Below, piece after piece: positions 3,702-21,290 of a stretch of 25,110 nucleotides of DNA. A model generated the notes under the pieces. The model made no database searches. It worked only from the letters and a program-made list of their open reading frames with translations, and had not been told where the DNA came from. Position 1 is the stretch's first letter; every line of letters starts with the position of its first letter. Origin of the DNA: a virus; IMG/VR virus record IMGVR_UViG_3300036444_000034, positions 1 through 25,110 of that record; one strand, given 5' to 3'. Made by a program: the position numbers and the translations under genes.

Positions 3702-3727
3702 GGCTAAACCACAGGAAATCACCCCAA

Positions 3728-3825
3728 ACTCGGTGTCATCCCAGCGAAAGCAGGACCCAACGCGCCGCAGCGCAAGTGGGTAGATGGGTCCCAGCTTTCG
3801 CTGGGATGACAGCCGGTGGGTGGGT
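3728..3825. repeat. Palindromic intergenic repeat, copy 2
   Basis: Same element as copy 1 but in the opposite orientation: the AACTCGGTGTCATCC end is on the left and GATGACAGCCGGTGGGTGGG on the right. Arms are at 3735-3759 and 3785-3810; the left arm has lost one base. It is almost identical over its whole length to copy 3 at 4152, including the central loop, so the two form direct repeats around the GIY-YIG gene remnant. Confidence 0.9.
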
Positions 3826-3836
3826 TAGCTACGTGC

Positions 3837-4138
3837 CTACCAAATGCCTTTGCCCAATGCCGGAAACAGATCGTCCCAATTCGGGTTCAGGTCCCGGAAC
3901 AGCTCGATCTTCCAGGCGCGCTGCCACGTCTTGATCTGCTTTTCTCGCGTATAGCTGCCTCGATCGACTCGTGCGGCTCGAACCACACGAGCCGGGTGAC
4001 GTCGTACTTGCTGGTGAACCCAGCAACGACATGTTCGCGATGTTGCGCGACACGACCCATCAGGTCGCTGGTGACGCCAGTGTAGAGCGTCCCGTTGCGC
4101 CGCGAGGCGAGCAGATACACGAAGTACGTTTTGTGCAC
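3837..4138 (-). pseudogene. GIY-YIG nuclease (COG2827-type), frameshifted
   Basis: A GTG start at 4138 with GGAGG eight bases upstream opens a frame beginning VHKTYFVYLLASRRNGTLY. It has the GIY-YIG fold signature (VYLL...LYTGVTSDL), a helix with RVAQHR, and the family motif VWFEPHESIEAA. Near 3950 one base is missing. Shifting frame there restores the usual C-terminus TREKQIKTWQRAW...LNPNWDDLFPAL and a TAG at 3837-3839. The full product would be about 100 residues, the normal size for this single-domain family. It lies antisense to the head operon, between two direct copies of the palindromic repeat, with its ribosome site just outside copy 3. It is probably inactive unless the shift is a sequencing error. 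Confidence 0.8.
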
Positions 4139-4151
4139 CTGCAGCCCCTCC

Positions 4152-4250
4152 AACTCGGTGTCATCCCAGCGAAAGCTGGGACCCAACTCGCCGCAGCGCA
4201 AGTGGGTAGATGGGTCCCAGCTTTCGCTGGGATGACAGCCGGTGGGTGGG
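4152..4250. repeat. Palindromic intergenic repeat, copy 3
   Basis: Perfect 26-base inverted arms lie at 4160-4185 and 4211-4236. The sequence is nearly identical to copy 2, in the same orientation, including the loop with CCGCAGCGCAAGTGGGTAGA. Together copies 2 and 3 bracket the nuclease remnant. The following 179 bases up to the scaffold gene show no further gene or repeat that I can support. Confidence 0.9.
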
Positions 4251-7575: not shown

Positions 7576-7617
7576 AGGTGCGGCCGACCGCGAAAGCTGG
7601 TTGGCCTCGCCCCTGCC

Positions 7618-7720
7618 CCACCCACCGGCTGTCATCCCAGCGAAAGCTGGGACCCATCTATCAGCTGGTGCTAGCGGCGAGTTGGGTCCCAGCTTTCGCT
7701 GGGATGACACCGAGTGTGGG
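7618..7720. repeat. Palindromic intergenic repeat, copy 4
   Basis: Perfect 26-base inverted arms lie at 7631-7656 and 7683-7708, with the CCACCGGCT end on the left as in copy 1 and opposite to copies 2 and 3. It occupies the gap between the 114-residue head gene and the gp4-like gene. The rest of that gap (7721-7797) shows nothing else that I can support. Confidence 0.9.
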
Positions 7721-7807
7721 GTGATTGCGGTGCGTCAGTTGGACTGCGGCGCAATCCCCCCATCCCACCGGCTGACTCGCACTTATCCCCTCCACCCAGG
7801 AGCCCCC

Positions 7808-8282: not shown

Positions 8283-10016
8283 ATGGTTGGTGTACCGTTC
8301 AATCCACGGACGGCCTTTCAGCCGACTGAAAAGCCGCAGCGGGTGCAGTTCGACCCGACGGGCATCGACCAGTTGCGCGCTATTAAGGCGCAGATCCCCG
8401 GCGCCGCCGACATGAGCGACGCCCAGTTCGCACTGAAACTGCACCGAGATCGCTATTCGACCTATCCACTTGTCGACTTCCTCAACGCGTTCGGGTTGGA
8501 ACGGCGCGACGTGCTGAACGAAACAGCGAATACCCCTGGTTACAACTATGCCTCAGAAATGCTGGCTACCCCCGGCGTCGGCGAGGCGCCGAGGGAGGCA
8601 GCCGCTCGACACGGCGGCGTACTCACAACCCGCGAGCCCGGTCTGCCCGAGAACGCGGGCCGTGCCTTTCTGCAGGGTGGCTCGTTCGGCTGGGGCGATG
8701 AAGCGGTTGCTGCTGGTGCTGCGGCGCTCCATCCCCTCGTCCACGGCGAGTCAGGTAAGGATTTCGACGAGCGATATCAGGCCTATCTCGACCGCGAGCG
8801 CGGCTACATCGACAAGTTTCGAGAGCAGAACCCGATCGTCGCCTACGGCTCCGAGATTGCCGGCTCACTCCCAACCGCTTTCGCGGCCGGCGGCCAACTG
8901 CTGGCGCGAGGCGGCGGCGCACTCGGCAACCTTGCGGTCAATGCTGGAGTCAACGCAGGCCAGGGCTTCGCCTATGGCGCCGGCGCCTCCAATGGCGACA
9001 CCGCTGCCGAACGAATGACAGACGGTGTGTGGGGCACGGCGAGTTCGATGGTTACCGGAGCCGCGCTCGACGGCGTCACCAGTGCCGTCAAAGGGGTCGC
9101 CAACTGGCTTGACGGCAAACAGGTCATCAAGGCGGCACCGACCGCTCAGCAGCTCAAAACGCAATCAAGGGCCTCCACCAAAGCAGCGAAGGTCGCCGGT
9201 GTCTCACTGCGCCCAACGGCCGCTGCTATCCTCAAGCAGGATCTGGAGCAACTGCTGACCAACGGGGGGCTGATGCAGAGTGGCAGGCTGGTGGGAAACT
9301 ATGACGACATCGGCAAGGCCATGCGACACTTGGACGAGTTGGCCGAGCAACCCATGACCTTCAGCGCCTTTGAGCTGTTAGAAGACAGTTTCAGAACCGC
9401 TTCGAAAAGCAGAAAGCGACGTGAGGCCGAACTTGCCGGTCAGTTGCTTGAGCAACTCGATACCTTCATCGACAGCTTGCCGCAGGCCGCCTTCGAGGGC
9501 GTCGGCGACGGTATCGAAGCCGCCGCCCGGTACAAGGCCGGTAAGCAGCAATGGCAGGCATACAAGCGCACCAAGCTGATCGAGGACGCAATCTATGACG
9601 CCCGCCTTTCGGAGAACTTCACTGATGCCATGAAGGACAGCCTGCGCGAGATACTGCGAAGCGACAAGGATCGTAGCCGCTTCACTCCGGAGCAGATTGC
9701 CCAGATCACACAGTTCGTGCAGCACGGCGGGTCGGTGGGCAAAGTGGCCCAACAGGTGGTGGGAAGCGAGGCCCTGTGGAAGATGATCACGCCCCCGGGC
9801 GTGTCAGCCAGCGTGCCTGCTGCCGTCGCTCCGCACGTCGTTCGCTCCATTGACAGGAGCCCTATGTTTCAAGCCGACGCATTGCGCGCCAGCATCGCTT
9901 CAGGTGCCGCTCCCAAAGCGCCTCGGTTCGATGATCTCGACCTCAGAGTGCTGGCCCCGGGCGTCGGCAATGCCTCCGGCAACTACCTCGAAACGCTCAT
10001 TACTGGCCAACGCTAG
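8283..10016 (+). CDS. Large DNA ejection (internal virion) protein A
   Basis: A 577-residue protein of the kind stored in the podovirus head and ejected into the envelope to help form the DNA channel. It begins MVGVPFNP, has a polar first 115 residues, then the glycine-rich motif GGSFGWGDEAVAAG at about 131-145. A Gly/Ala-rich hydrophobic stretch follows at about 190-237, then long charged helices, and it ends in LDLRVLAPGVGN. The same ending recurs as an orphan at 17440-17706, and the opening resembles protein B (MAWVPFDP). GAGG lies 7 bases before the ATG. Its stop overlaps the stop of the convergent membrane-protein gene inside one CTAG. The position between gp4 and gp10 is unusual. Function is inferred from composition and relatives. 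Confidence 0.65.
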   Translation: MVGVPFNPRTAFQPTEKPQRVQFDPTGIDQLRAIKAQIPGAADMSDAQFALKLHRDRYSTYPLVDFLNAFGLERRDVLNETANTPGYNYASEMLATPGVGEAPREAAARHGGVLTTREPGLPENAGRAFLQGGSFGWGDEAVAAGAAALHPLVHGESGKDFDERYQAYLDRERGYIDKFREQNPIVAYGSEIAGSLPTAFAAGGQLLARGGGALGNLAVNAGVNAGQGFAYGAGASNGDTAAERMTDGVWGTASSMVTGAALDGVTSAVKGVANWLDGKQVIKAAPTAQQLKTQSRASTKAAKVAGVSLRPTAAAILKQDLEQLLTNGGLMQSGRLVGNYDDIGKAMRHLDELAEQPMTFSAFELLEDSFRTASKSRKRREAELAGQLLEQLDTFIDSLPQAAFEGVGDGIEAAARYKAGKQQWQAYKRTKLIEDAIYDARLSENFTDAMKDSLREILRSDKDRSRFTPEQIAQITQFVQHGGSVGKVAQQVVGSEALWKMITPPGVSASVPAAVAPHVVRSIDRSPMFQADALRASIASGAAPKAPRFDDLDLRVLAPGVGNASGNYLETLITGQR

Positions 10017-10270
10017 CGGCCTTTCCGCCCAAAGAACGCACCGGGGAAGCGACCGGCAACTGCGACCCCCAACAGGAAGGCCAGTGGCACCGCAACGAGA
10101 ACGGCGTACGGGCGGGGGCTGACAAAGGACATGACGATCACCACGATAGTCGCAATGCCGAACACCAGCATCGCTCCGAGGAGCACCCGCGGCTTATCGA
10201 GCGGCCCCCTGGGCTGCTCCGTCCATTCGCCACGCTCGCGGCTCAGCTCGATCTCGGGCCGTTCGGTCAT
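10013..10270 (-). CDS. Small two-span membrane protein, candidate exclusion protein
   Basis: An 85-residue protein with a polar N-terminus (MTERPEIELSRERGEW) and two hydrophobic segments: VLLGAMLVFGIATIVVIVM at about residues 31-49 and YAVLVAVPLAFLLGVAVAG at about 56-75. It ends in a basic tail FFGRKGR. It is convergent with ejection gene A and shares the CTAG containing both stop codons. The ATG at 10270 lacks a good ribosome site (a GAGGG is about 14 bases away); the frame remains open upstream but that stretch does not look coding. The convergent position resembles P22 sieA. I do not recognise a named family. Confidence 0.5.
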   Translation of the reverse strand: MTERPEIELSRERGEWTEQPRGPLDKPRVLLGAMLVFGIATIVVIVMSFVSPRPYAVLVAVPLAFLLGVAVAGRFPGAFFGRKGR

Positions 10271-10581
10271 CGATGTTATGGATCCCTCTGCAATGGTTAC
10301 AAGGAGGATGCACCCCGTCAAGCTCGACGGCAAGCCACCGTGCAAAGTGGCGGCCACGGGTAAGGCCGTCGCTCTAGGCGTTCCGCACCATCCCAGCGGT
10401 CGCCAGCATCTCTCCTCCGGTGCTCCTAAGCGCATTGGCGCGCGGGACCTGGGGAGCAGGGCAGCAACCCTAAGGCGCGCGCGCCGATCGCTGAGCTCGT
10501 GTGCATCCAATCTGGCTTGCGCCTGGTGATCGGCGCACCCCTAAGCAACGCCGTTCGATCGGCGTGAACTCAGATCGCGCG
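10271..10581. other. 311-base gap between two - strand membrane genes
   Basis: No open frame here looks coding on either strand. On the - strand a sequence near 10440-10472, GGGTTGCTGCCC followed by GCTCC, resembles the -35 half of the promoter class seen at 10995 but has no matching -10 hexamer. It may be a decayed promoter for the gene starting at 10270. The block contains alternating GC runs (GGCGCGCGCGCC near 10473) but no long inverted repeat. Confidence 0.4.
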
Positions 10582-10968
10582 TCATAGCGGCCAATGCTTG
10601 AGTGCCATTGGAGCCACCAATACGATCAGGCCGATCAACAGCACGGTCACTAACCAGAGCGCGTTTCGAAGGCCGAGCACCACTCTGTGAATGCTCTCCG
10701 CCGCTCTGGCCGCGAGCGCCGCATCCCTGCGGCCGTTCAGCAGCAGAATATCTCGCCTCTTTTCGTCCATGAAGTGGTCCAGCTCGTATGCGCCGAACCG
10801 GCCGAGCTCTTCGTGCAGAGCATTGTCAGCGAACTTGCGGTCGATCGTCAGATCGACGTATCCCCGTGTCTTGTGGCGGAACTCCCTGATGGCTTCGATA
10901 CGTGCGCGCAAATCCTCGCCGGCGACCTCGGCGGTGGTTCGCTCCCTCTTGGTGTCCGACGATTCCAT
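10582..10968 (-). CDS. Tail-anchored small membrane protein, candidate exclusion protein
   Basis: A 128-residue protein with a long charged helical cytoplasmic part (EIKRE-type composition, ending ALAARAAESIHRVV) and one C-terminal membrane span, LWLVTVLLIGLIVLVAPMAL. The start at 10968 is chosen because GAGGG sits 6 bases upstream; the ATG at 10974 would touch that site. A conserved promoter lies at 10995-11023, giving a leader of about 20 bases. The architecture, soluble helical domain plus tail anchor, differs from the other small proteins here. It may be the partner of the two-span protein encoded next to it. Role inferred only from position. Confidence 0.6.
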   Translation of the reverse strand: MESSDTKRERTTAEVAGEDLRARIEAIREFRHKTRGYVDLTIDRKFADNALHEELGRFGAYELDHFMDEKRRDILLLNGRRDAALAARAAESIHRVVLGLRNALWLVTVLLIGLIVLVAPMALKHWPL

Positions 10969-10994
10969 GCTCATCCCTCATGACTTCAGGCGCT

Positions 10995-11023
10995 ACGTTA
11001 GGTCTGGGTCCTCGGGGCAGCAA
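10995..11023 (-). promoter_or_regulatory. Conserved - strand promoter, member 1
   Basis: On the - strand: -35 TTGCTG (11018-11023), a 17-bp spacer containing CGAGGACCCAG, and -10 TAACGT (10995-11000), about 20 bases before the gene at 10968. Sequence and spacing are shared with the elements at 16202, 18550 and 19444. The constant GAGGAC in the spacer suggests an operator or another selected feature. Confidence 0.65.
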
Positions 11024-11113
11024 TAGCCCATCGATCCTCGCGGTTTGCGTAGACGAGGTCGCAGTTGAACTCTGCGAAACCGCGTATGAGACGTGTGCCT
11101 GTCCGTGAGCCCT

Positions 11114-11146
11114 TTGCACCGCCGCCGCCAACGCGCCGCGGTGCAA
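11114..11146. terminator. Hairpin upstream of gp10
   Basis: Nine-base perfect stem TTGCACCGC / GCGGTGCAA with a 15-base GC-rich loop. No U-run follows on either strand, so a factor-independent terminator is doubtful. It lies between the - strand promoter at 10995 and the start of gp10 and may separate the two transcription units. Confidence 0.35.
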
Positions 11147-11231
11147 GTCACCTCACCTCGTGCCCCCAGCCCCACCCCTCCCCCGGATCTTCCGGCGACT
11201 TAACTCACCCGACACCAATCGAGTATTTCCG

Positions 11232-12650
11232 ATGCCCCCGATCACCTGGCCTACCGGCACCGCGCCGGGCGTGAACCCCACTGAAACCGGCGGGCGGTTG
11301 ATCAATGCCTTCGCCGAGCGGGCCCCATCGGGCTCGCGCAGCGAGATCGTCTGGCGTCGCGTCGCCGGGCTGATCGCCCGCTTCACCACCACGCAGACCG
11401 CCATTCGCGGCGCCCTGTTGGTGGGCTCGGTGCTCTATGTGGTTTCCGGCAACCGGGTCTATTCGATCACCTCGAGCTATGGGGTGACTGAGCTGACCGG
11501 CACGGTGGGCGGCACGGGCCCCGTGACCATGGCACGCAACATGAAGGCGCCGGTGCCCGATGTGCTGATCGTCCATTCTTCGGGCATGTCATCGATCAAC
11601 ATCTCCGGCGCCTCTGTCGCCGTGTTCAGCGATGGCGACCTGCCCTCGGTCAACTCGATCTGCTGGGTCGATGGCTATTTCATCGTCACCGCCGAGAACG
11701 GCCTCGCCTACCAGTCGGGGCTGAACGACACGAGCTTCGCCTCGGTCGACCGCACCACGGCCGAGGCCGACCCCGACGGGCTCTATCGCGCCATCGCCTC
11801 GGGCAGCGACCTGATCCTGATGGGCACCGCCTCGCTCGAATTCTACGCCAATGCCGGCAACCCCACCGGCTTCGCCTTTAACCGCAGCGTGGTGGTGCCG
11901 ATCGGGCTCAAGGCCCCCTATGCCGTCGCCGGGTTCGAGCCGGGGTTTGCTGATACGGTGATTTTCGTTGCCAACGACAACACGGTTCGCAAGCTCCAGG
12001 GCTATGACCCCACGCCGATTTCGGGGCCCGACCTCAACCGGCTGATCGAGGCGGTGGCCAACCCCGCCGAGCTGATCGCCTGGGTCTACCAGGCGGCCGG
12101 CCACGCCTATTGGGTGCTGAGCGGGCCGGGTTGGACCTGGGTCTACGACGTTTCGACCGGCAGCTGGCACGAGCGGCAGAGCTATGGCTTTAGCGATTGG
12201 CGCTGCCGCTATGGCGTCGCCGCCTGGAGCAAGTGGTTCACCTTCGACCTCGAGAGCGGCAAGGCGTTCGAGCTGAGCTCGGCGGCGCGGCGCGATGGGG
12301 CGAACCCCCTGGTCTGGACGCTGCGCTCCAACCAGGCGCACCGCTTCCCCGGCCGCGCCGTGATCCACAAGGCCAGCTTCGATTTCGAAACCGGCATCGG
12401 CATCGACGCCGGCATCTCGCCGATCGAAACCGAGCCGGTGGTGCGGATCCGCTGGTCTGACGATGGCGGCCGCAACTGGGGGAACCCCTTGACCCGCCGG
12501 CTCGGCACCCAAGGCGAAGACGTACCTATCGACATCAACAATGCCGGGCTGACCGGCCGAAAGGGCAGGATCTGGGAGATGAGCATCTCCGACCCCGTCG
12601 AGATCGCGTTTTTCGGCGGCGCCATGGATATCGAGGAGCGCGCCGCATGA
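11232..12650 (+). CDS. gp10-like packaged DNA stabilisation protein
   Basis: In P22, gp10 binds under gp4 and seals the portal channel after packaging. From the ATG at 11232 the product is 472 residues, the length of P22 gp10. It begins MPPITWPTGTAPGVNPTE, typical of the Phage_stabilise family, and continues as repeated beta strands (LYVVSGNRVYSI, YFIVTAENGLAYQSG, HAYWVLSGPGWTWVYDV), consistent with a propeller. The frame is open up to 11160 but the extra residues are proline-rich and look non-coding. The ribosome site is weak. Its stop overlaps the next start (ATGA). The ejection-A block separates it from gp4. Confidence 0.85.
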   Translation: MPPITWPTGTAPGVNPTETGGRLINAFAERAPSGSRSEIVWRRVAGLIARFTTTQTAIRGALLVGSVLYVVSGNRVYSITSSYGVTELTGTVGGTGPVTMARNMKAPVPDVLIVHSSGMSSINISGASVAVFSDGDLPSVNSICWVDGYFIVTAENGLAYQSGLNDTSFASVDRTTAEADPDGLYRAIASGSDLILMGTASLEFYANAGNPTGFAFNRSVVVPIGLKAPYAVAGFEPGFADTVIFVANDNTVRKLQGYDPTPISGPDLNRLIEAVANPAELIAWVYQAAGHAYWVLSGPGWTWVYDVSTGSWHERQSYGFSDWRCRYGVAAWSKWFTFDLESGKAFELSSAARRDGANPLVWTLRSNQAHRFPGRAVIHKASFDFETGIGIDAGISPIETEPVVRIRWSDDGGRNWGNPLTRRLGTQGEDVPIDINNAGLTGRKGRIWEMSISDPVEIAFFGGAMDIEERAA

Positions 12651-13024
12651 GCACGCCCGATAGCCTGAGGCCGATCCCGCATCCGAGCGCCCGGCTGGTC
12701 GACGCCGACGGGGCGATCGCCAAACCCTGGTACGACTGGCTGAACCAACTGGCGACAAAACTTGCCGAGCTGACCCCGCTCGAGGGCACCGCAACCTACG
12801 ATCCGCCGCTGCTCGCCGATGGCGCCGGCGCCACTACCGACGTGACGGTGCCGGGCGCGGCGCTGGGCGATTTCGCCACCGCGGCGTTCTCGCTGGCCAC
12901 CGCAGGCATCGTCATCACCGCCTGGGTGAGCGCCCCGAACACTGTTTCCGTCCGCTTCCAGAACGAAACCGGCATGCCGCTCGACTATGGCAGCGGCAAG
13001 CTCACCGCCCGCGTTTACAAATAG
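12647..13024 (+). CDS. Virion structural protein in the tail-needle (gp26) position
   Basis: A 125-residue protein whose ATG overlaps the gp10 stop, so it is translationally coupled. The N-terminus carries ARLVDADGAIAKPWYDWLNQL, a short helix-forming motif common in phage tail and head-fibre proteins. The C-terminal half is a compact beta domain (LGDFATAAFSLATAGIVITA, then NTVSVRFQNETG). In P22 the next gene after 10 encodes the tail needle gp26. This protein is much shorter and lacks a long coiled coil, so it is not a needle homologue by sequence. A minor tail or head-plug component is the likeliest role. Confidence 0.6.
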   Translation: MSTPDSLRPIPHPSARLVDADGAIAKPWYDWLNQLATKLAELTPLEGTATYDPPLLADGAGATTDVTVPGAALGDFATAAFSLATAGIVITAWVSAPNTVSVRFQNETGMPLDYGSGKLTARVYK

Positions 13025-13033
13025 GAGCCACCT

Positions 13034-13729
13034 ATGGCTGACATTTTCGAAACCATCGGCGACTGGCTGGGCCTCAACAAGGGCAAGGCCACGCAGAAGG
13101 CCGCCGAGCAGAACCGCGGCGTCATCGACCAGCTGGGTAATACCGGCCGGCCGATCATCGAGGGGATCCAGGGGGTTACCGGCGACTACCTCGATCTCGG
13201 CAAGCTCGGCGCCGGCCGTTACGCCGATGCCATGGGCCTCAACGGCCCCGACGGCTACGCCCGGGCCGAGGCAGCGTTCCGCGCCGGGCCGGGCTACCAG
13301 TTCGCGCTCGACCAGGGGCTCGATGCGGTGGCGCGCAAGGGCTCGGCCATGGGCCGGCTCGACAGCGGCAATACCGATCTCGACCTGATGCGCTACGCCA
13401 CCGGCTATGCCGACCAGGCCTGGGGCAACTGGACCAACGGGCTCTCGGGCTACAACAACATGTACGGCCAGGGCGTCGGCAACGACGTCGCCGCCCGCGG
13501 CCTCGGCCTCGATTTCGAGAGCGGACTGTCCTCCGCCTATATGGGCGCCAACAACCAGGTCGCCGCCGGCAAGGAAGCCGGCCAGGGCGCCATGCTCGAC
13601 GCGCTGGGCTCGATCGTCGGCATCGCCGGCCAGGCGTTCGGCGGCGGCGCCTTTGGCGGCTATGGCGGCTTCAAGGGCGGCGGCGGCATGGGGCCGAACA
13701 CGCTCAACGGCACAGTCACCCAGCGATAG
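13034..13729 (+). CDS. Ejection-type internal virion protein (gp7/gp20-like position)
   Basis: A 231-residue protein beginning MADIFETIGDWLGLNKGKAT with an AGGAG site upstream. It contains GPGYQFALDQGLDAVARKGS followed by GRLDSGNT, Ala/Gly-rich helices, and a glycine-rich end (FGGGAFGGYGGFKGGGG). P22 gp7 is of similar length, and this gene lies between gp10 and the large ejection protein, as 7 and 20 do in P22. I infer a DNA ejection or transfer component packaged in the head. The homology to gp7 itself is not demonstrable by eye. Confidence 0.6.
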   Translation: MADIFETIGDWLGLNKGKATQKAAEQNRGVIDQLGNTGRPIIEGIQGVTGDYLDLGKLGAGRYADAMGLNGPDGYARAEAAFRAGPGYQFALDQGLDAVARKGSAMGRLDSGNTDLDLMRYATGYADQAWGNWTNGLSGYNNMYGQGVGNDVAARGLGLDFESGLSSAYMGANNQVAAGKEAGQGAMLDALGSIVGIAGQAFGGGAFGGYGGFKGGGGMGPNTLNGTVTQR

Positions 13730-13739
13730 GAGCCCGCAG

Positions 13740-14036
13740 ATGGCACTGAACTACCCCGACTACCTCGTCCCGCAGCCTTCGCCGACCAAGCTCACCGACC
13801 TGCTCGACCTGTGGAACCAGGGCGTCGCCCAAGGCAACGCCGATCGCTACGAGCGCGAGGCGCCGCAGCAGTTCGCCAACGCCGCGGCCCCGCTGTCGCA
13901 GTTCGGGCTGACGACGCCGCCCGATCAGTTGCGGGCGCTGTTCGCGAACCCGCAGACGCGGCCGCTCGCCCTGCAGATGGTGCAGGAGGCATCCGCCCGG
14001 CGCGCGGCTGCCGGCTATAAGCCGCAGCGACAGTGA
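13740..14036 (+). CDS. Small conserved virion-region protein
   Basis: A 98-residue protein, MALNYPDYLVPQPSPTKLTD and onward, predicted mostly helical, with no membrane segment. AGGAG at 13728-13732 overlaps the preceding stop and lies 7 bases before the ATG at 13740, so it is coupled to the upstream ejection-type gene. The longer frame that could start further upstream only overlaps that gene and is not credible. It precedes the large ejection protein and is probably an accessory of the same ejection apparatus. Function unknown. Confidence 0.65.
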   Translation: MALNYPDYLVPQPSPTKLTDLLDLWNQGVAQGNADRYEREAPQQFANAAAPLSQFGLTTPPDQLRALFANPQTRPLALQMVQEASARRAAAGYKPQRQ

Positions 14037-14155
14037 TCGCACTCCGGCACGCGGGGACCTTCAGACAGAGTCACCCACTCCATCGGCGCGTACTGCGCCA
14101 ACGCTGGCGCGGCCGCCGCTTTCTCCTCCACAACCATTAGCTATAAGGTGCAATG

Positions 14156-15904
14156 ATGGCTTGGGTACCGTTTGATCCGATGCAGCGCCCGACCCCTGTC
14201 ACTGAGGATCCGCTGCTCGCGATCTATTTGGCGAGGACGCAGGGTGCCAACCCCAACCGCCCCGAGACCTATGGCGAGAGTCATTTTGCGCAGAACATGT
14301 CCGGGCTTAACGAGGGTATCGGGTACTTGCTTGGAGGCCCGGTCGATCTCACTGCGGCTCTGCTCAACCTGGGTATCGGGGGCCTGAATATGGCGTTCCC
14401 GCCCGAACAAACGCTTGCCGACCAGATTGCAGGCAAGCACGTGGAGCCACGCTTCAAGCCGATCGTAGACCCGGTAGGCGGCTCGCAGATGATCAACCGC
14501 TTCATGGCCGATGTTGGCGCGATCACGCCAGAAACGAACGACCCCGGTAAGCAGTTCGGGCGTCGTGTCTTTCAGGAAGTCGGCGCCTCGCTCATCCCGA
14601 CGATGGGTACGATGAGTCGCGCAGCACGCCCCCTTGCTGCTGCTGCCAAGGAATTCACCCTTGCGGGCGGTGCGGGCATAGGCGCCGCTACTGCGGATCA
14701 GTTAGCCCCGGACAATCCTTGGGCAGAGTTCATAGGGCAAATACTGGGAACTGTCTCCGCGCAGGGCGCCACCAAGCTTGGCAGCAAGCTCATCACCCCA
14801 TTTCCCGTTCAGGACCCCGCTCGGCTCGGCGCGATGGAAATGCTGCAACGCGAAGGCATCGACCTTTCCGCGGGGCAGCAAACCGGGCACATTGGGCTGC
14901 AGAACATCGAAGGCGATTTGGCCGGCGCCGAGGTTGTCCAGCTCACCCAGAAGCAGACGGAGCAGTTCACCGAGGCCGTACTCAAACGGATCGGCATTAG
15001 TACCAACCGCGCGACCAAAGACGTGCTGAAGACCGGCAATGAGAACCTGGTTGCCGCATTTGGCGACATCGGTTCGCGCAATGACATCCAGCTGGCAGAC
15101 GGGAGACTCGGCAAGCAACTAGGCGACGCATACCAAGTATATGCCAAAAGTACCACTGAAGCCAATCGCCTGCCGGCTATCGAGAACTCCTTCATCGAGG
15201 CCGTCATGGCGCTGAAACCAAAAGGCGGAATCAATGTGCTTGATGGCAGCACCTACGCTAACCTCAGGACCCGCGTTGGCCAGTTGGCGCGCGATACAGC
15301 CGACCCAAAGCAAAACTCCGTGCTCATGGAGATCCAGCGCGCCCTGGATGACGCAATGGAACGCAGCCTGTCCAAGGAGGACGTCGGCGCATTTCGGTGG
15401 GCTCGCGCCGCGGATCGCGACTTCACGATCATTGAGAAGGCGGCACTGCAAGACCCGTCCGGACTAATCTCACCTAAGGCATTGCAAAGTGCCGCGGTAG
15501 CCGGACAGGATGACCTCGCAAAGCTCGCCGACAGCGGCACGATGTTGATGACACCACCGTCATCGGCCGGTACAGCGCCCGGCACGCGGCAGCTACTCAC
15601 AACGATGCCAACCATCGCGGGTGGTTACATTGGCCAACGGATCGGCGACGTGGAGGGGGCTGCGGCTGGAGCAGCGGCGGCAGCGGCGGCCAGCTCAGCC
15701 GTCCCCTACGCTATTGGTCGCGCAATCCTCTCGAATCCGGGACGACGATACCTAGCTAACCAAGTACTCAATGGGCCACCGTCCGGGTCTAACGGCTTCG
15801 GACCGCTTGGCGCAATGCTCGCGGGGCAGACCAGCGAGATCGGCCCGTCGCGCGACCCACTGGCCGAGCTTAGCGAGTTAATGTATCTGGCCGGCGGCAA
15901 ATGA
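14156..15904 (+). CDS. Large DNA ejection (internal virion) protein B
   Basis: A 582-residue protein starting MAWVPFDP, the same opening pattern as protein A. It has NMSGLNEGIGYLLGGPVDLT at about residues 47-66 leading into a hydrophobic stretch, a second Ala/Gly-rich segment at about 157-183, long charged helices with coiled-coil character in the middle, and a very Ala-rich C-terminal segment (GAAAGAAAAAAASSAVPYAI) at about 495-520 that could insert in membranes. Two adjacent ATGs are possible; the second (14156) is 7 bases from AAGG and gives the same N-terminus as protein A, so I chose it. It corresponds in position to P22 gp16. Function is inferred. Confidence 0.7.
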   Translation: MAWVPFDPMQRPTPVTEDPLLAIYLARTQGANPNRPETYGESHFAQNMSGLNEGIGYLLGGPVDLTAALLNLGIGGLNMAFPPEQTLADQIAGKHVEPRFKPIVDPVGGSQMINRFMADVGAITPETNDPGKQFGRRVFQEVGASLIPTMGTMSRAARPLAAAAKEFTLAGGAGIGAATADQLAPDNPWAEFIGQILGTVSAQGATKLGSKLITPFPVQDPARLGAMEMLQREGIDLSAGQQTGHIGLQNIEGDLAGAEVVQLTQKQTEQFTEAVLKRIGISTNRATKDVLKTGNENLVAAFGDIGSRNDIQLADGRLGKQLGDAYQVYAKSTTEANRLPAIENSFIEAVMALKPKGGINVLDGSTYANLRTRVGQLARDTADPKQNSVLMEIQRALDDAMERSLSKEDVGAFRWARAADRDFTIIEKAALQDPSGLISPKALQSAAVAGQDDLAKLADSGTMLMTPPSSAGTAPGTRQLLTTMPTIAGGYIGQRIGDVEGAAAGAAAAAAASSAVPYAIGRAILSNPGRRYLANQVLNGPPSGSNGFGPLGAMLAGQTSEIGPSRDPLAELSELMYLAGGK

Positions 15905-15992
15905 CGTCGCCACCCGCGGCAGAACCAGTTCCATCGGCCATTGCCACCGCATCTGCCGGTCACAACGGCCAGTGTCGTGATCTAAACGTGCG

Positions 15993-16172
15993 TCAGCGAT
16001 CAAAGAAAAATGATAATAAGAACCTTACCACCCGCTGTAACCAAAAGATGACACTGAAAAAGAACACTGTCGCAACCAGGCCGACGAACACCCCCACTCC
16101 CACGTTCAGGGCGAGCGGGTCGGTGATCCCAGCCCCGCCGAACAGACCGTAAAGAAATTCCTGGAGTTTCAA
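15993..16172 (-). CDS. Family-b small membrane protein (b1)
   Basis: A 59-residue protein convergent with ejection gene B. A TTG start at 16172 is preferred because AGGAGG lies 7 bases upstream. The paralogue at 19411 has the same CGACAG-TTG-AA context. The protein runs LKLQEFLYGLFGGAGITDP, then a long hydrophobic region LNVGVGVFVGLVATVFFFSV and FWLQRVVRFLLSFFF, one span plus an amphipathic or second span. The promoter at 16202-16230 gives a leader of about 23 bases. The shared motif with b2 is LK[LV]QE...G[IV]TDP. Holin-like size, but position and promoter argue for a lysogenic function. Confidence 0.6.
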   Translation of the reverse strand: MKLQEFLYGLFGGAGITDPLALNVGVGVFVGLVATVFFFSVIFWLQRVVRFLLSFFFDR

Positions 16173-16201
16173 CTGTCGGCCTCCTGTCGTTTGCAACGCC
16201 A

Positions 16202-16230
16202 ACGATAGGGGCCCGTCCTCAGCGGAACAA
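16202..16230 (-). promoter_or_regulatory. Conserved - strand promoter, member 2
   Basis: On the - strand: -35 TTGTTC (16225-16230), 17-bp spacer containing TGAGGAC, -10 TATCGT (16202-16207). It drives b1. Same layout as members at 10995, 18550 and 19444. Confidence 0.6.
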
Positions 16231-16349
16231 GCATCGATCTACCAGAGTTGCCCGCCCGCAGTGGGGTGCAGCATAGTGGCGGAGATCAGCCCCGCAAAGC
16301 TGCTTGCGAATTCCCGACAGCCTTATCCCCCTCCCCCGGAGACTTCCCC

Positions 16350-16580
16350 ATGGCAGCCATCTTCAGCGATCCGCTGGCGGGTCTGCTCGACACGATCCCG
16401 CGAACAGTGGCGAACACAGCGGCCCGCATGCGGCCGGAAACTGTCAATGCTCGCATTGCTGCAGCGCTGATGAACCCACCATCACCGGCTTACATTGACC
16501 AGTTGATCGCAGCGCGGGCTCTCGCTAACCGCAAGAGCCTGCTGGCGCCGGGCGTCACAGCAGCATTGACGCAGACGTAA
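16350..16580 (+). pseudogene. Mini-gene: duplicated start joined to an ejection-protein C-terminus
   Basis: An intact 76-residue frame, MAAIFSDPLAGLLDTIPR and onward, with GGAGA 6-8 bases upstream. Its first codons and the 17-base leader CCCCTCCCCCGGAGACT are the same as those of the tail fibre gene at 19535 (MAAIW). The remainder (PETVNARIAAAL then ARALANRKSLLAPGVTAAL) looks like the end of a large ejection protein, with LLAPGV as in protein A. I interpret it as an ejection gene whose middle has been deleted, leaving start and C-terminus. It may still be translated. It is followed by convergent family-c membrane genes. Confidence 0.5.
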
Positions 16581-16604
16581 TGGCCTGAGATTGGCGGGCA
16601 GTGA

Positions 16605-16862
16605 TCACCAGTCGAGACGCTTCAGGCTGATGGTGAGCATCGCGCCGGCCATGAAGCCGAGGACCACCACGGCGAGGAAGGCGTACCATGGCATCCACTC
16701 GTGAAAGCCGATGAAATACATCCAGGCGGCGCCGCAGAGCGAGAAAATCGACGCCACGCGGTGCAAGCCCCGATCGGGCCGCTTTCGGTACCTCCCGTCT
16801 TCACCGCGGACCCTGTAGTCCATTGTATCGAGTTTGATCTCGGTTGGCCGTTTTCCCGCCAT
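16605..16862 (-). CDS. Family-c small membrane protein (c1)
   Basis: An 85-residue protein with a basic cytoplasmic N-terminus of about 35 residues (MAGKRPTEIKLDTMDYRVRG) and two membrane spans, ASIFSLCGAAWMYFIGF and YAFLAVVVLGFMAGAMLTI, ending SLKRLDW. GAGGA lies 8 bases before the ATG at 16862. It is paralogous to c2 at 17275: KRPTEIKLDT against ERPTRIDLYT, matching spans and C-termini. It is convergent with the mini ejection gene at 16350. The upstream block at 16951-16986 is shared with c2. Candidate superinfection-exclusion or surface-modifying protein; family not recognised. Confidence 0.65.
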   Translation of the reverse strand: MAGKRPTEIKLDTMDYRVRGEDGRYRKRPDRGLHRVASIFSLCGAAWMYFIGFHEWMPWYAFLAVVVLGFMAGAMLTISLKRLDW

Positions 16863-16952
16863 GCACCGGTTCCTCTTCCTGAGCCCCTGCACTCCAAACA
16901 AGCGCTGGTTTCGCCGTCACGAGGCAGCAACGCAAGTTACCTCAACCGTGAA

Positions 16953-16981
16953 ATCTGACGGTGCGGCCGTGGCAAAACCAA
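16953..16981 (-). promoter_or_regulatory. Putative promoter of c1, second class
   Basis: On the - strand: TTGGTT (16976-16981), 17 bp, TCAGAT (16953-16958). The 36-base block 16951-16986 matches the one before c2 at 32 of 36 positions and is followed in both by GGTTGAGGT. The -10 hexamer is poor (3 of 6 to consensus), so the block may instead be an operator. Confidence 0.4.
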
Positions 16982-17020
16982 GTCGCCGGGCGGGCTGGCC
17001 GCTGGCATGAGGGGAGCTTA

Positions 17021-17275
17021 TCACCGGTCGCCATGCTTGAGGCTGCGCGCGAAGAAGCTGCCAGCGAAAAAGCCGTACACCAAGACGTCCAGGAAGCCGA
17101 TCAAAGGCACGGCCTCGCGAAAGCCGACAAGGTACAGACAAGCAGCGAGGCCAAGCGCAATAACGGCACCGATAAAGTGCAAGGTGCGGTTGGGTCGCCT
17201 GCGCGTTCTCCTGCCTGCGTCACGAACTTTATCGGTCGTGTAGAGGTCGATTCTGGTGGGCCGTTCGCTTGCCAT
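17021..17275 (-). CDS. Family-c small membrane protein (c2)
   Basis: An 84-residue paralogue of c1. The basic N-terminal part is MASERPTRIDLYTTDKVRD with a cluster of arginines (GRRTRRRPNRT), followed by two spans, FIGAVIALGLAACLYLVGF and FLDVLVYGFFAGSFFARSL. The ATG at 17275 has AGGA 9 bases upstream; the frame is open further but without a better start. It lies tandem to c1 and shares the upstream 36-base block. Tandem retention of two divergent copies, both intact, suggests selection for different specificities rather than redundancy. Named function unknown. Confidence 0.6.
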   Translation of the reverse strand: MASERPTRIDLYTTDKVRDAGRRTRRRPNRTLHFIGAVIALGLAACLYLVGFREAVPLIGFLDVLVYGFFAGSFFARSLKHGDR

Positions 17276-17369
17276 CGCCACGATTCCTATTACTGAGCAC
17301 TTGCTCCACATGCAGTCGTCGTTGGCAACACTGCCAATCGCGCTAAGACACAAATCACCTCAACCCGAA

Positions 17370-17398
17370 ATCTGATAGTGCGGCTATGGCAAAACCAA
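17370..17398 (-). promoter_or_regulatory. Putative promoter of c2, second class
   Basis: On the - strand: TTGGTT (17393-17398), 17 bp, TCAGAT (17370-17375). It is identical in hexamers and spacing to the c1 element and lies within the repeated block 17368-17403. It sits about 95 bases before the c2 start. Confidence 0.4.
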
Positions 17399-17439
17399 GT
17401 CGCGCTTGCCGCCATCTGGCTCGGCCTGTTCGATAGCCG

Positions 17440-17706
17440 AAAGGCGATGGACTGCGTCCACGGGGGCCAATTTTGGTCGGCACAGGAGCGGCCGTCGGGC
17501 CGCCAATAGTACGCAAAATTCTTGACGGAGGCGCATCCACCTTCGGGAAGGAACTGCGCACCACGGTCGCATCGGGTAGGCGGCTTCCTCCAGTTGATCC
17601 ATTGGACCTGCGCCTACTCGCTCCAGGCCTCGGCAACAACGAAAGGGTGCGCGAGCCCATCGAGATCATTGTCAGAGGTGGGAAGCCTCCTGCTCCCTTA
17701 CGCTGA
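17440..17706 (+). pseudogene. Orphan C-terminus of an ejection protein related to A
   Basis: A frame open from about 17437 ends at 17706 and reads VGTGAAVGPPIVRKIL, then LRTTVASGRRLPPVDPLDLR followed by LLAPGLGNN. This parallels the end of protein A: VPAAVAPHVVRSI, LRASIASGAAPKAP, LDLRVLAPGVGN. The order of the three blocks is conserved. Only about the last 80 codons remain, preceded by an in-frame stop and no good ATG or ribosome site (a TTG at 17473 is possible). It is therefore the tail of a lost paralogue, or an inactive donor cassette. Confidence 0.65.
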
Positions 17707-18056
17707 GGAAGGGCAGCTCTAGCAACGGCCCACCTGTATCCATGCGGTCCTCTCATGGCGTCGGCGCAAAGCATTGGAGCCACGCCCAGTGCCGACAGCG
17801 AATACGCCTATCTCAGCCGAGACAGGATCGTGTTTCAACTACATGTTTGATGCAGGTTCCCAAGCCTCGCTCGAGCCGATTGGCCTGCTGCCGGTCTGGG
17901 CCCACCCTCGGAAGAGCACCATCACGGGCACCGTTGAAAAGGGCGACACCCCTGCGAGGAGCGGCGCAGTACGCCACACAGAACGGCTACCTTAGCCAGC
18001 CGGGGGCAATAGGCAGCCTTGCTGAAATATACCGATACTGCAAAGCCCGATCGGAA
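17707..18056. other. 350 bases without a recognisable intact gene
   Basis: Short frames only. One, from the ATG at 17755, encodes MASAQSIGATPSADSEYAYL and stops after 31 residues. None has a good ribosome site or recognisable product. It lies between an orphan ejection-protein end and a run of - strand membrane genes, so decayed phage coding sequence is the likeliest content. From about 18000 the sequence becomes clearly AT-richer than the rest of the window. Confidence 0.4.
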
Positions 18057-18164
18057 TCAGATTACCGTTATAATTCTGGTAAGGCAGTAGGCCAGAACTA
18101 CCACTCCTATCGTTGACATCAGCAACGCCTTTACGTTCGCATGAAAATTCAACCGCCTCTTCAT
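18057..18164 (-). CDS. Very short single-span membrane peptide (d1)
   Basis: A 35-residue frame with an ATG at 18164 preceded by AAGG at spacing 4. It has a basic start MKRRLNFHANVKALL followed by a hydrophobic span LMSTIGVVVLAYCLTRIITV. The positive-inside layout is correct for a membrane peptide. It lies downstream of a1 on the same strand and may be cotranscribed. A competing frame (18225-17992) covers the same bases but has no membrane pattern or start signal. Support is modest because of the small size. Confidence 0.4.
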   Translation of the reverse strand: MKRRLNFHANVKALLMSTIGVVVLAYCLTRIITVI

Positions 18165-18279
18165 GATACCTTATCTTTAGCCGATCTCCCACTCCGATGG
18201 AATTCGCGCTGTCATCGACAATCATCTGTATCGAAATAATCCTCTCTTCTAACCCCCTCGAGTATCTGTAAAATATTAC

Positions 18280-18456
18280 CTAAAGATATAGAAATGATTC
18301 CATCACGATGGCGTACAATATTCCGCCCGTGGAAACGATAAGAACATCAGTTCGATCAGTCACTCGCTCGAGGACGTACCATAAAGCGATGGGAATAAGC
18401 AGGCTGGCCCCCACGACCCACAAGTACGAAAAAACCGGCCTCAGCGTTTGCCACAT
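18280..18456 (-). CDS. Family-a small membrane protein (a1)
   Basis: A 58-residue protein starting MWQTLRPVFSYLWVVGASLL with GGGGGA about 8 bases upstream. It has two membrane spans joined by the loop YVLERVTDRTDVL, then GGILYAIVMESFLYL. The loop is nearly identical to that of a2 at 18860-19129 (YVLERVTDRTEVL), while the flanking spans differ. The frame extends upstream to 18594 but that part lacks coding character. A member of the conserved promoter class lies at 18550-18578. The charged invariant loop between variable spans suggests a shared partner and variable membrane contacts. Confidence 0.6.
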   Translation of the reverse strand: MWQTLRPVFSYLWVVGASLLIPIALWYVLERVTDRTDVLIVSTGGILYAIVMESFLYL

Positions 18457-18549
18457 GCAACTTTCCCCCGGTAAGCGCCGGGCGAACATAATAGCGCTGG
18501 CACGAGCTGGGAAGGTCGCGCGATGACATCTGCCGTCGTTGCAGCCGCA

Positions 18550-18578
18550 ATAAAGTCGCCCCGTCCTCGGACCGGCAA
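18550..18578 (-). promoter_or_regulatory. Conserved - strand promoter, member 3
   Basis: On the - strand: -35 TTGCCG (18573-18578), 17-bp spacer with CCGAGGAC, -10 CTTTAT (18550-18555). It lies upstream of a1 with a leader of about 90 bases, longer than for the other members. The + strand sequence GTCCTCGG-CCGGCAAC is the shared core. Confidence 0.5.
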
Positions 18579-18737
18579 CCTGGCTATCGCGCAACGGCCA
18601 CGATGATCTTTCTACTCAGCTTGCGGCCGGCAAGTTGACCCCGCGCGCCGCATACGAGGCGGTGCAGCAGCGACGACCGGCGAGCTGGCCCTTTTGAGAG
18701 GACGCGCTCATCCGGCAAAGGTCGGTCAGCTATTAAG

Positions 18738-18827
18738 TTACCTACAAAATCGAAAAGGGAAGAACCGACGCAAAACGCCTGAAACACATTCCAATGTGAT
18801 AACCGACGCCACAATTATTATGTGCAT
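18738..18827 (-). CDS. Possible very short membrane peptide (d2)
   Basis: A 29-residue frame downstream of a2 beginning MHIIIVASVITLECVSGVL and ending in a basic, aromatic tail. One hydrophobic span. No ribosome site is visible before the ATG at 18827, so translation would depend on a2. The position after a2 mirrors d1 after a1. The 18579-18737 stretch beyond it holds no intact gene; a + strand frame there ending GKLTPRAAYEAVQQRR may be another decayed phage fragment. Confidence 0.2.
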   Translation of the reverse strand: MHIIIVASVITLECVSGVLRRFFPFRFCR

Positions 18828-18859
18828 TATTGTTCTATTATGGTAGTCACTCGCCCAAT

Positions 18860-19129
18860 CTATAGAAAAACCATACTCGCACCCCGATCGGCAGGGACAC
18901 TTGTATCGTTTGGCGTTTCCATTCCCTGCGTTACTTTGGCGATTTGCCTCGACAGACGGTATGTAGAAAGCTGCTGGCTGTACATCAGCCACGAGAAAGC
19001 ACCCAATAGCATGCCGGCAAGCGTGACCATCAGGACCTCGGTGCGGTCGGTAACGCGCTCCAGCACATACGAAACGAGGTAGAGGCCACCCAGTCTAGAC
19101 CCGATGAGCCAGATGTACGAGATAACCAA
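18860..19129 (-). CDS. Family-a small membrane protein (a2)
   Basis: An 89-residue paralogue of a1. The start at 19129 is TTG with GGGAG close upstream. It runs VISYIWLIGSRLGGLYLVS, the family loop YVLERVTDRTEVL, a second span TLAGMLLGAFSWLMYS, and then a soluble tail of about 35 residues that a1 lacks (SQQLSTYRLSRQIAKV and onward). It is the middle gene of the - strand run b2-a2-a1. No promoter of the conserved class was found directly upstream, so it may be read from the b2 promoter. Confidence 0.5.
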   Translation of the reverse strand: MVISYIWLIGSRLGGLYLVSYVLERVTDRTEVLMVTLAGMLLGAFSWLMYSQQLSTYRLSRQIAKVTQGMETPNDTSVPADRGASMVFL

Positions 19130-19177
19130 TCGCTCCCTGGCGAAAACGAGAACATGCGACCCTCTTGCGTGGTGGTG

Positions 19178-19411
19178 TTACGCGAGCATAGAGGCGGGGG
19201 TGTTGGCTGGGAAGTAGGCCGCGCCGCACGCCGTCTCGTGGCAACGGGAGCCGACGGCGCAGCTCAGGACGAACAAAGTCAGGCGCACGGCTACCGCAAG
19301 CAACGTCGCTATCACGAAACCAACGATGCCGCCCCCAACCACGCTCGCTGACATTGGGTCGGTGACGCCGAGCCAATCGCACGCGGCCTGAATCCACTCC
19401 TGAACCTTCAA
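19178..19411 (-). CDS. Family-b small membrane protein (b2)
   Basis: Paralogue of b1, about 77 residues. It reads LKVQEWIQAACDWLGVTDP, then a long hydrophobic region VVGGGIVGFVIATLLAVAV and RLTLFVLSC, then a Cys/Ala-containing tail. I take the TTG at 19411 because the CGACAG-TTG-AA context matches b1 and because the promoter at 19444-19472 would leave almost no leader for the ATG at 19429, which nevertheless remains possible. It lies just before the tail fibre gene, divergent from it, and leads the - strand run towards a2 and a1. Confidence 0.55.
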   Translation of the reverse strand: MKVQEWIQAACDWLGVTDPMSASVVGGGIVGFVIATLLAVAVRLTLFVLSCAVGSRCHETACGAAYFPANTPASMLA

Positions 19412-19443
19412 CTGTCGAGCTTCCGTCATTGCGTCTGTGCGTC

Positions 19444-19472
19444 ACGCTAGGGCTGGGTCCTCGGCGCGGCAA
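19444..19472 (-). promoter_or_regulatory. Conserved - strand promoter, member 4
   Basis: On the - strand: -35 TTGCCG (19467-19472), 17-bp spacer CGCCGAGGACCCAGCCC, -10 TAGCGT (19444-19449). It is the closest relative of member 1 at 10995; about 30 of 38 positions agree across 19440-19477. It drives b2. Confidence 0.65.
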
Positions 19473-19534
19473 CGCCCTTGTGCGTTCATCCACCCTTGGC
19501 CACCAGCCAATCCCCTCCCCCGGAGACTCCCCCC

Positions 19535-20527
19535 ATGGCAGCCATCTGGCCCGGCTCGCGCGTGCCCAATTTCGGCATCGGCGACCGACTCTCTTTCTAC
19601 GATACCGCCACCTCGACGCCGCAGGTGGTCTATGCCGATGGCGCGTTGAGCGTGGCGCATGATCAGCCGATCCTTGCCGATGCGCGCGGCATGTTTCCGG
19701 TGATCTACCTGAGCCCGGCGCCGGGCAGCTATCGCCAGAAGCTCACCGATGCCAATGGCGTGCTGATCTTCGACGACGACGATATCGACGTGCCGCAATC
19801 GGCCGATTACGAACCGCCCAACCCCGGGGTCACCGACCCGACGCTGCTCGTCACCACCGGCATGCGCATCGGCTATTATGGCACCGCGGCGCCCACCGGC
19901 TGGGTGCGCTGCAACGGCCGCACGCTGGGCTCGGCGAGTTCGGGCGCCAGCGAGCGCGCCAATGCCGATGCCCAGGCACTGTTCCTTCACCTGTGGACGG
20001 CCGACACCACGCTCGCCGTCAGCGGTGGCGGCGCCTCGGCGGCCGGCGACTGGGCCGCCAACAAGACCATCGCGCTACCCGACTATCGCGACCGCATCGC
20101 CATCGGGCTCGGCGCCATGGGCAATGCCGACATCAACCTGATCCCCGATGCGACGGTGGATGGCGGGGAGACCAACACCACGCTCGGCGCGACGGTGGGC
20201 AGCGCAACGCAGACCCTCACCGCGGCGCAGATGCCGGTGCACGCACACGGCAAGGGCACGCTGAAGATGCCCAACCATGGGCATCCCTTTCGAGCCAATG
20301 TCGGGAGCAACGCCGACTCCGCCTACCCCGGCGGCATCCTGTTCCGGAACGCAAGCCCACTCGCCACCGTGCCCGCATACACCGGCACGCCCAGCGATAG
20401 TGCGGGCCAGGGGATCGGCGGCTCCGGCGCGATCGACCTCGATGGCGACATGGCCAATGCGGGCAGCGGCAACTCCCACCCCAACGTCCAGCCCTCGCTG
20501 TTCGAACTCGTCATCATCAAGCTCTGA
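19535..20527 (+). CDS. Tail fibre protein with phage collar domain
   Basis: A 330-residue receptor-side tail protein. The N-terminal part (MAAIWPGSRVPNFGIGDRLS through ARGMFPVIYLSP) is a beta-rich virion-attachment domain. From about residue 108 comes a collar-type domain: GYYGTAAPTGWVRCNGRT then NADAQALFLHLW and ALPDYRDRIAIGLG. The characteristic LTAAQMPVHAH at about 228-238 and PNHGHP further on supply metal-binding-type histidines seen in collar fibres. It ends PSLFELVIIKL. GGAGA at 19522-19526 is 8 bases from the ATG. The leader and first codons are duplicated at 16333-16360. It is short for a fibre, so it may be a tip or adaptor. Confidence 0.8.
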   Translation: MAAIWPGSRVPNFGIGDRLSFYDTATSTPQVVYADGALSVAHDQPILADARGMFPVIYLSPAPGSYRQKLTDANGVLIFDDDDIDVPQSADYEPPNPGVTDPTLLVTTGMRIGYYGTAAPTGWVRCNGRTLGSASSGASERANADAQALFLHLWTADTTLAVSGGGASAAGDWAANKTIALPDYRDRIAIGLGAMGNADINLIPDATVDGGETNTTLGATVGSATQTLTAAQMPVHAHGKGTLKMPNHGHPFRANVGSNADSAYPGGILFRNASPLATVPAYTGTPSDSAGQGIGGSGAIDLDGDMANAGSGNSHPNVQPSLFELVIIKL

Positions 20528-20882: not shown

Positions 20883-20988
20883 ATGCCTCAACCTTCCGCA
20901 ACAAGCGGCCTCAACACTAGCGACTTCGCCCACCGAAGAATAGTAGGCGGCCCTCCGGTATCTCGCGCCCGCTCCCATCCGTGAATAC

Positions 20989-21290
20989 GGGAGACTTCCA
21001 GGAGCCCCAACGCCCACGCGGGGCTGCGATCCTGGTCGACTTCATCATCAACCTCGAAACAACCGCCAGGACCGGGAGGCCTGTTACACGATCATCGGCT
21101 ATCACAACGAAAGGCCGGCGAGTTGCCCAAGCCGTCACCGAAATGACGCTCGAACAGCTACTGGTCGAGCAGCGCTGGGTGCGCAATTCCAAGACACCAA
21201 GCGGCGCGCCGGGCCGGTAGCAGGTCATCCGGTCGCCCCTCCGCAACCTCGCTGCCGAACTGGACGTGCCGCTCTCAGGCGCCGATCGAG
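20989..21290 (+). pseudogene. Decayed second copy of the endolysin gene
   Basis: Base-level similarity to the intact endolysin at 23969 runs from its ribosome site (GGGAGACT) to codon ~95. The start codon has become AGG (21000-21002), one base is lost within the next 20 (frameshift), and the tyrosine codon of GRYQII is now TAG. Recognisable pieces include TEMTLEQLLVEQ, RWVRNSKTPSGAPGR and, in shifted frame, TIIGYHNERP. Weak similarity may continue towards 21385. It lies in the same orientation as the intact copy, with the glycosyltransferase gene between them. Confidence 0.85.

Follow-up and report, generated by a model that had tools for sequence, protein, structure and literature searches.

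Ejection-protein C-termini paired with convergent small membrane-protein genes: a putative immunity array in a P22-like structural cluster related to Devosia elements

The closest described counterpart of the locus analyzed here is the exclusion gene sieA of phage P22, in which gene 16 ends 22 bases from the convergent sieA, ahead of the tailspike gene. SieA is an inner-membrane protein of 164 aa encoded by one gene per phage, without an array and without orphan C-termini. Its known target is the C-terminal region of the ejection proteins, and escape mutations map to the C-terminal regions of gp16 and gp20 (PMC10883804). A second counterpart is provided by the effector-immunity arrays of the type VI secretion system (T6SS), contact-dependent inhibition (CDI) and Rhs systems (e.g., the Vibrio cholerae T6SS clusters, PMC5361080), which combine a polymorphic C-terminal end with a neighboring partner gene, exchange such modules, and retain displaced partners as orphans along with remnants of older 3′ ends; in the T6SS, orphan-partner arrays arise through sequential displacement (PMC5361080). 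Here, we analyzed the entire IMG/VR virus record IMGVR_UViG_3300036444_000034 (25,110 bases, hereafter the window), which carries a P22-like structural cluster. In the window and its relatives, the C-terminal type of the DNA-ejection proteins is associated far beyond chance with the family of the small gene that converges on them. In our view, the locus is rather probably built of ejection/immunity modules that are arranged as an array and diversified by displacement, in which small inner-membrane proteins would block conduits bearing the cognate C-terminus.

As with SieA, a convergent gene immediately follows the last ejection gene and precedes the tail gene, the membrane location of its product being predicted here from transmembrane (TM) spans, and the C-terminal region of the ejection protein would be the target. 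In contrast to the window, the published SieA types display no type-specific matching. As in the effector-immunity arrays, similar protein bodies end in exchangeable C-termini, each linked to a partner gene, with type T3 as the exception, and orphan C-termini and orphan partner genes follow downstream. Unlike in those arrays, polymorphism affects a DNA-ejection protein of the virion, and the partner gene is convergent and encodes a tiny, predicted membrane protein. The Ltp lipoproteins of Streptococcus phages (PMC3952083) differ in being Gram-positive surface lipoproteins encoded by a single gene at another position, without a pairing array. By analogy, the system in the window appears to work like SieA combined with an effector-immunity array, yet it stands outside the SieA family by sequence. 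The motif FxRYPxEAxxFNK occurs only in SieA itself and is absent from the small proteins; with this absence and with matches attributable to TM noise only, a relation to SieA by sequence was rejected. Among 21 ejection/tail junctions examined in relatives, 11 carry a convergent TM gene, 4 a minus-strand gene without TM spans, and 6 neither. In the open-access literature, we found no paper on such arrays or on a Devosia gene transfer agent (GTA).

The gene order in the window is terminase, portal, scaffold, coat, gp4-like, ejection A, gp10-like (Hc3), gp7-like, a small gene, ejection B, tail and lysis; the portal, coat, gp10-like and ejection genes are of the P22 type and stand in P22 order. 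The relatives derive from Devosia (Hyphomicrobiales), a genus of soil bacteria, and their structural genes are mostly >80% identical. A search with ejection A for close relatives gave no match in viral contigs or annotated phages because A belongs to the variable part, and the relatives were obtained with the gp10-like gene instead. Ejection and minus-strand genes form cassettes at two positions, between the gp4-like and gp10-like genes (position 1) and between the gp7-like and tail genes (position 2). The last 80 residues of the ejection proteins were typed as T1–T7. An earlier reading of the sequence (the original prediction) had described ejection genes A and B, two orphan C-termini and convergent minus-strand genes, and this layout is real. 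Ejection A is 29% identical over 395 aa to the last pre-tail ejection gene in genome G134 and 43% identical to the tail-adjacent ejection gene of loci L006 and L009. Ejection B matches the PHROG DNA-ejection family phrog_26400 at 1.8e-15 and the corresponding gene in L105 at 37% over 371 aa. The structure model of ejection A is of low confidence (pLDDT 57) and served solely to note that the last ~35 residues are unstructured. The features are as follows.

8283–10016, plus strand: ejection protein A, 577 aa, C-terminal type T1c; position 1 cassette, gp4-like to gp10-like (Hc3)
10013–10270, minus strand: m1, 85 aa, two predicted TM spans; stop codon overlaps ejection A by 4 bases
10384–10485, plus strand: T6-type ejection C-terminus remnant, 71% to the T6 of G004; frame broken
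10582–10968, minus strand: m2, 128 aa, one predicted C-terminal TM span, T6 partner; 80% to the m2 of G004 and 70% to that of L014
14153–15904, plus strand: ejection protein B, 583 aa, C-terminal type T2; position 2 cassette
15993–16172, minus strand: a1, 59 aa, one predicted TM span, start codon uncertain; L003, L005, L006 and G001 have a gene of this family behind T2
16350–16580, plus strand: T4-type orphan ejection C-terminus, 77% to the end of the L010 ejection gene
16605–16862, minus strand: b1, 85 aa, predicted membrane protein with a two-helix hairpin, T4 partner
17021–17275, minus strand: b2, 84 aa, paralogue of b1 (45%)
17437–17706, plus strand: T1b-type orphan ejection C-terminus, 68–70% to the ends of the L009 and L010 ejection genes
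18280–18456, minus strand: c1, partner type of T1b, truncated; C-terminal half out of frame at ~18060–18152
18554–18694, plus strand: T7-type ejection C-terminus remnant, 74%
18860–19153, minus strand: c2, partner type of T7 (74–76% to the c2 of L002), frameshifted
19178–19429, minus strand: a2, 83 aa, one predicted TM span, paralogue of a1; adjoins the tail gene
13740–14036, plus strand: small late gene preceding the ejection cassettes; present at both positions in L002, L004, L007 and L010
19535–20527, plus strand: tail gene bounding position 2 (phrog_8763, 4.9e-39)

All eight minus-strand genes have predicted TM spans, as anticipated in the original prediction, and the proposed paralogue pairs a1/a2, b1/b2 and c1/c2 are borne out by sequence comparison. 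Other parts of that reading required correction. The two genes behind ejection A had been taken as its set and described as two unrelated proteins; m1 is distantly related to b2 (E 4e-5), and m2 is not a second partner of A but has its own T6 remnant. The two named orphan C-termini are genuine, but the T6 and T7 remnants had been overlooked, and c1 and c2 are broken. Six of the eight minus-strand genes (m1, m2, a1, b1, c1 and c2) have their own ejection C-terminus directly upstream, and b2 and a2 adjoin a paralogue or the tail gene. The two-helix model of the b family is of low confidence. Scans of Pfam, PHROGs and PADLOC assigned the small proteins to no known family; m1 and b2 were compared with PADLOC only, and a1 was outside these scans. 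The ratio of nonsynonymous to synonymous substitution rates (dN/dS) on homologues, 0.15–0.31 for b, 0.40 for m2, 0.32 for c2 and 0.42 for a, points to purifying selection. A promoter-like TTCCCA-N17-TATGTT, or a near variant, is located 56–65 bases upstream of several diverged c genes (L002, L007, G096 and L010). The sequence GAGGTRAYTTG was rejected as a shared regulatory motif upstream of the minus-strand genes; its few occurrences are mostly in the window and reflect local duplication.

The pairing was traced by searching all loci with the typed C-termini and the small proteins, covering about ten independent relatives. T1 is followed by c in six loci with matching subtypes, T2 by a in the window and the L003 group, and T4 by b in the window, L010 and the L003 group and, as remnants, in L002 and G004. 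T5 precedes family F23 in L002, L007 and the L003 group, T6 precedes m2 in the window and G004, and T7 precedes c2 in the window, L002 and G096. An apparent pairing of T7 with a in L004 was withdrawn, since a c2 remnant sits directly behind T7 there. In the curated set, 29 of 31 pairs are concordant against a mean of 9.2, a value reached in 0 of 20,000 shuffles, and the result holds within position classes too. The original prediction had named co-occurrence across relatives as its check, and this check came out positive. Under an automatic rule including held-out loci, 27 of 32 pairs are concordant (8.9 expected; maximum 23 in 20,000 shuffles). A strict pairing with whole ejection families was discarded; the pairing is with the C-terminus.

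Two further cases from outside the discovery set agree with the pairs. Locus L014 (Devosia MAG-137) was left out when the pairs were derived; here T6 (77.5%) forms the end of the ejection gene at position 2 rather than position 1, with m2 (70%) as the following minus-strand gene, succeeded further on by degenerate T4/T7 pieces and then c2. A profile of the b family run over 136 Devosiaceae genomes matched only G001, G004 and G086; an order-level match in G402 proved false. The G086 prophage has a different backbone and gives no match to the gp10-like gene, and its b homologue (36%) is convergent with, and overlaps the end of, a T4-type ejection gene. Since this ejection gene is homologous over its full length (36% over 579 aa), the case represents a pair persisting on another backbone rather than an isolated swap of the C-terminus.

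Comparison of the cassettes indicates how the pairs move. The B type occupies position 2 in the window and L004 and position 1 in L003, L005 and L006, while the A type occupies position 1 in the window and position 2 in L002, L006, L009 and L010. At position 2 of L002 and G004, the ejection bodies share 61–78% nucleotide identity, whereas the last codons and the c gene are mostly 91–98% identical. Conversely, ejection B of the window and its L004 counterpart are about 90% identical up to the last ~17 codons and unrelated thereafter, and the partner changes from a to c. These comparisons show the C-terminus and the small gene recombining as one block, into either position. Displaced pairs accumulate and decay, in line with the growth by matched pairs that had been proposed. 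In all 16 independent cases, an intact ejection gene is directly followed by an intact small gene, compared with about 22 intact genes among the 31 minus-strand genes further off (one-sided Fisher p 0.015; proximal and distal groups assigned by hand). The six minus-strand genes at position 2 of the window indicate that the array is a derived state. As a separate observation, the tail-gene leader and first codons (ATGGCAGCCATC) occur at 16330–16365 and 19510–19550, the former copy being fused in frame to the T4 orphan C-terminus, likely as a recombination scar.

The window record is trimmed, and statements on chromosomal inheritance come from relatives with an assembled chromosome. Four genomes have an assembled left junction (G001, G002, G004 and G096, comprising L036–L039, L042, L044, L066 and L067; G005 lies outside this count), and in each of them the same chromosomal gene flanks the start of the element. 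The right flank is common to G002 and G096 and to G001 and G004. The synonymous divergence (dS) of the element equals that of the flanking genes; between G001 and G004, it is 0.23 for terL, 0.22 for Hc3 and 0.31 for the tail gene, and mostly 0.10–0.39 in the flank (one gene 0.57). No tyrosine or serine recombinase was matched near the element in the four genomes; the complete relative G009 has a serine recombinase. The shared flank, equal dS and lack of a nearby integrase show a vertically inherited element in these relatives rather than an ordinary prophage, so that the lysogenic setting assumed in the original prediction is not upheld and "immunity" may fit better than "lysogen superinfection exclusion". 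GTAs (RcGTA-type and the Bartonella BaGTA) are likewise chromosomal phage structural clusters with vertical inheritance, purifying selection and no integrase nearby; in contrast to them, the present cluster is a P22-like short-tail module with ejection proteins. This integrase-less cluster, found at one locus in several Devosia species, is a candidate GTA or particle that does not belong to the RcGTA type. A further P22-like cluster that looks vertically inherited is present in four other genomes of the Hyphomicrobiales (L112, L113, L115 and L118), where a P22-like gp10 homologue and its neighbors share the same adjacent host-like genes, identified by eye as cytochrome b561-like, enoyl-CoA hydratase-like and glucokinase-like.

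In the mechanism that we propose, each module joins the C-terminal end of a DNA-ejection (pilot) protein to a small convergent gene, which encodes a predicted inner-membrane protein and has its stop codon at or close to the 3′ end of the ejection gene. As the comparisons show, a new module pushes the older one downstream; the displaced C-termini stay as remnants, and their small genes persist and later decay. The minus-strand genes would be expressed in the carrier, and their products, inserted in its inner membrane, would recognize the C-terminus of the cognate ejection protein from an incoming particle and prevent the conduit from assembling or functioning, in the manner of SieA in P22. Exclusion or immunity conferred in this manner, suggested by analogy, would protect the carrier from its own particles and from particles with older types. 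Given a vertically inherited, integrase-less element in the relatives, their particles would probably be domesticated ones, GTA-like or bacteriocin-like, and not those of an ordinary phage. More tentatively, and with a lesser chance of being right, a domesticated P22-derived particle with exchangeable ejection tails and matching membrane proteins could serve kin recognition of the effector-immunity kind, such that only cells without a match would be injured or injected and strains would diversify by stacking modules.

Several observations weigh against the immunity-array interpretation. The neighbors of T3 are variable; the T3 ends of L003 and L004 are 88% alike over the last 25 aa and alike to the stop, yet their partners are F33 and F42, respectively. 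One T4 copy in the L003 group precedes an F26 remnant. The small genes have no sequence homology to P22 SieA (E 0.005–0.02, TM noise only). SieA types A and B differ strongly and have the same specificity (PMC10883804), which means that specificity need not track sequence type. The coat gene is split in one of the four chromosomal copies (G096). Finally, physical linkage alone would produce some co-occurrence. The last point leads to an alternative that we regard as unlikely, namely that the small genes are lysogenic-conversion or cargo genes at a recombination hotspot, tied to the C-termini by touching or overlapping 3′ ends. These ends overlap in the window and most outgroups, hence the linkage is tight, and the T3 mismatch and the 6 of 21 junctions lacking a convergent gene would also fit. 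However, mere linkage sits poorly with a T4–b pair preserved at 36% identity in a phage whose backbone is different, with pairs at both positions, with a partner switch where only the last ~17 codons differ, and with C-terminal remnants retained beside their own partner type.

Alternatively, the small membrane protein might fold, anchor or mask its ejection protein in the producing cell, as a chaperone or self-toxicity guard, without acting on incoming particles. The cognate pairing and the intact gene found in 16 of 16 cases beside an intact ejection gene would be expected from such a helper, but the small genes lie on the strand opposite to the late genes, precluding co-transcription, they are missing in some related phages, and the retention of several orphan partners with no ejection gene left would go unexplained; we judge this improbable. 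Simple decay of a prophage region gathering functionless fragments is very improbable: although the window has broken copies of c1 and c2, several loci contain remnants and the coat gene of G096 is split, dN/dS is about 0.15–0.6 in most small-gene comparisons (one F26 comparison, 1.03) and 0.06–0.22 for terL, portal, coat and Hc3 between species, and proximal genes are always intact.

Other features of the window lie outside the cassettes. REP-like palindromic repeats (TGTCATCCC...GGGATGACA) occur between structural genes at 1575–1671, 3717–3828, 4135–4250 and 7617–7733, and a GIY-YIG-like gene fragment lies among them at 3837–3986, the gene being complete in L006, L009 and G096; such elements within a phage late operon are unusual. 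The start of the endolysin gene is partly duplicated (20981–21276 and 23969–24252; 76–84% nucleotide identity), and a kelch/glycosyltransferase-like gene (21390–23672, minus strand), also present in G001, lies between the duplicates.

If the membrane proteins block matching injectors, the locus would be a modular lock-and-key system that is nowhere described. The authors of a 2024 study of SieA find the upkeep of SieA–ejection protein interactions, given the great diversity of both sides, "difficult to understand". Devosia offers a natural set of matched and mismatched pairs within one genus, in which the specificity of ejection-conduit blockers becomes directly testable. The finding would carry the logic of T6SS/CDI immunity displacement arrays over to the ejection proteins of virions. 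It also indicates that Devosia has a vertically inherited P22-like element not described before, possibly a gene transfer agent or a killing particle.

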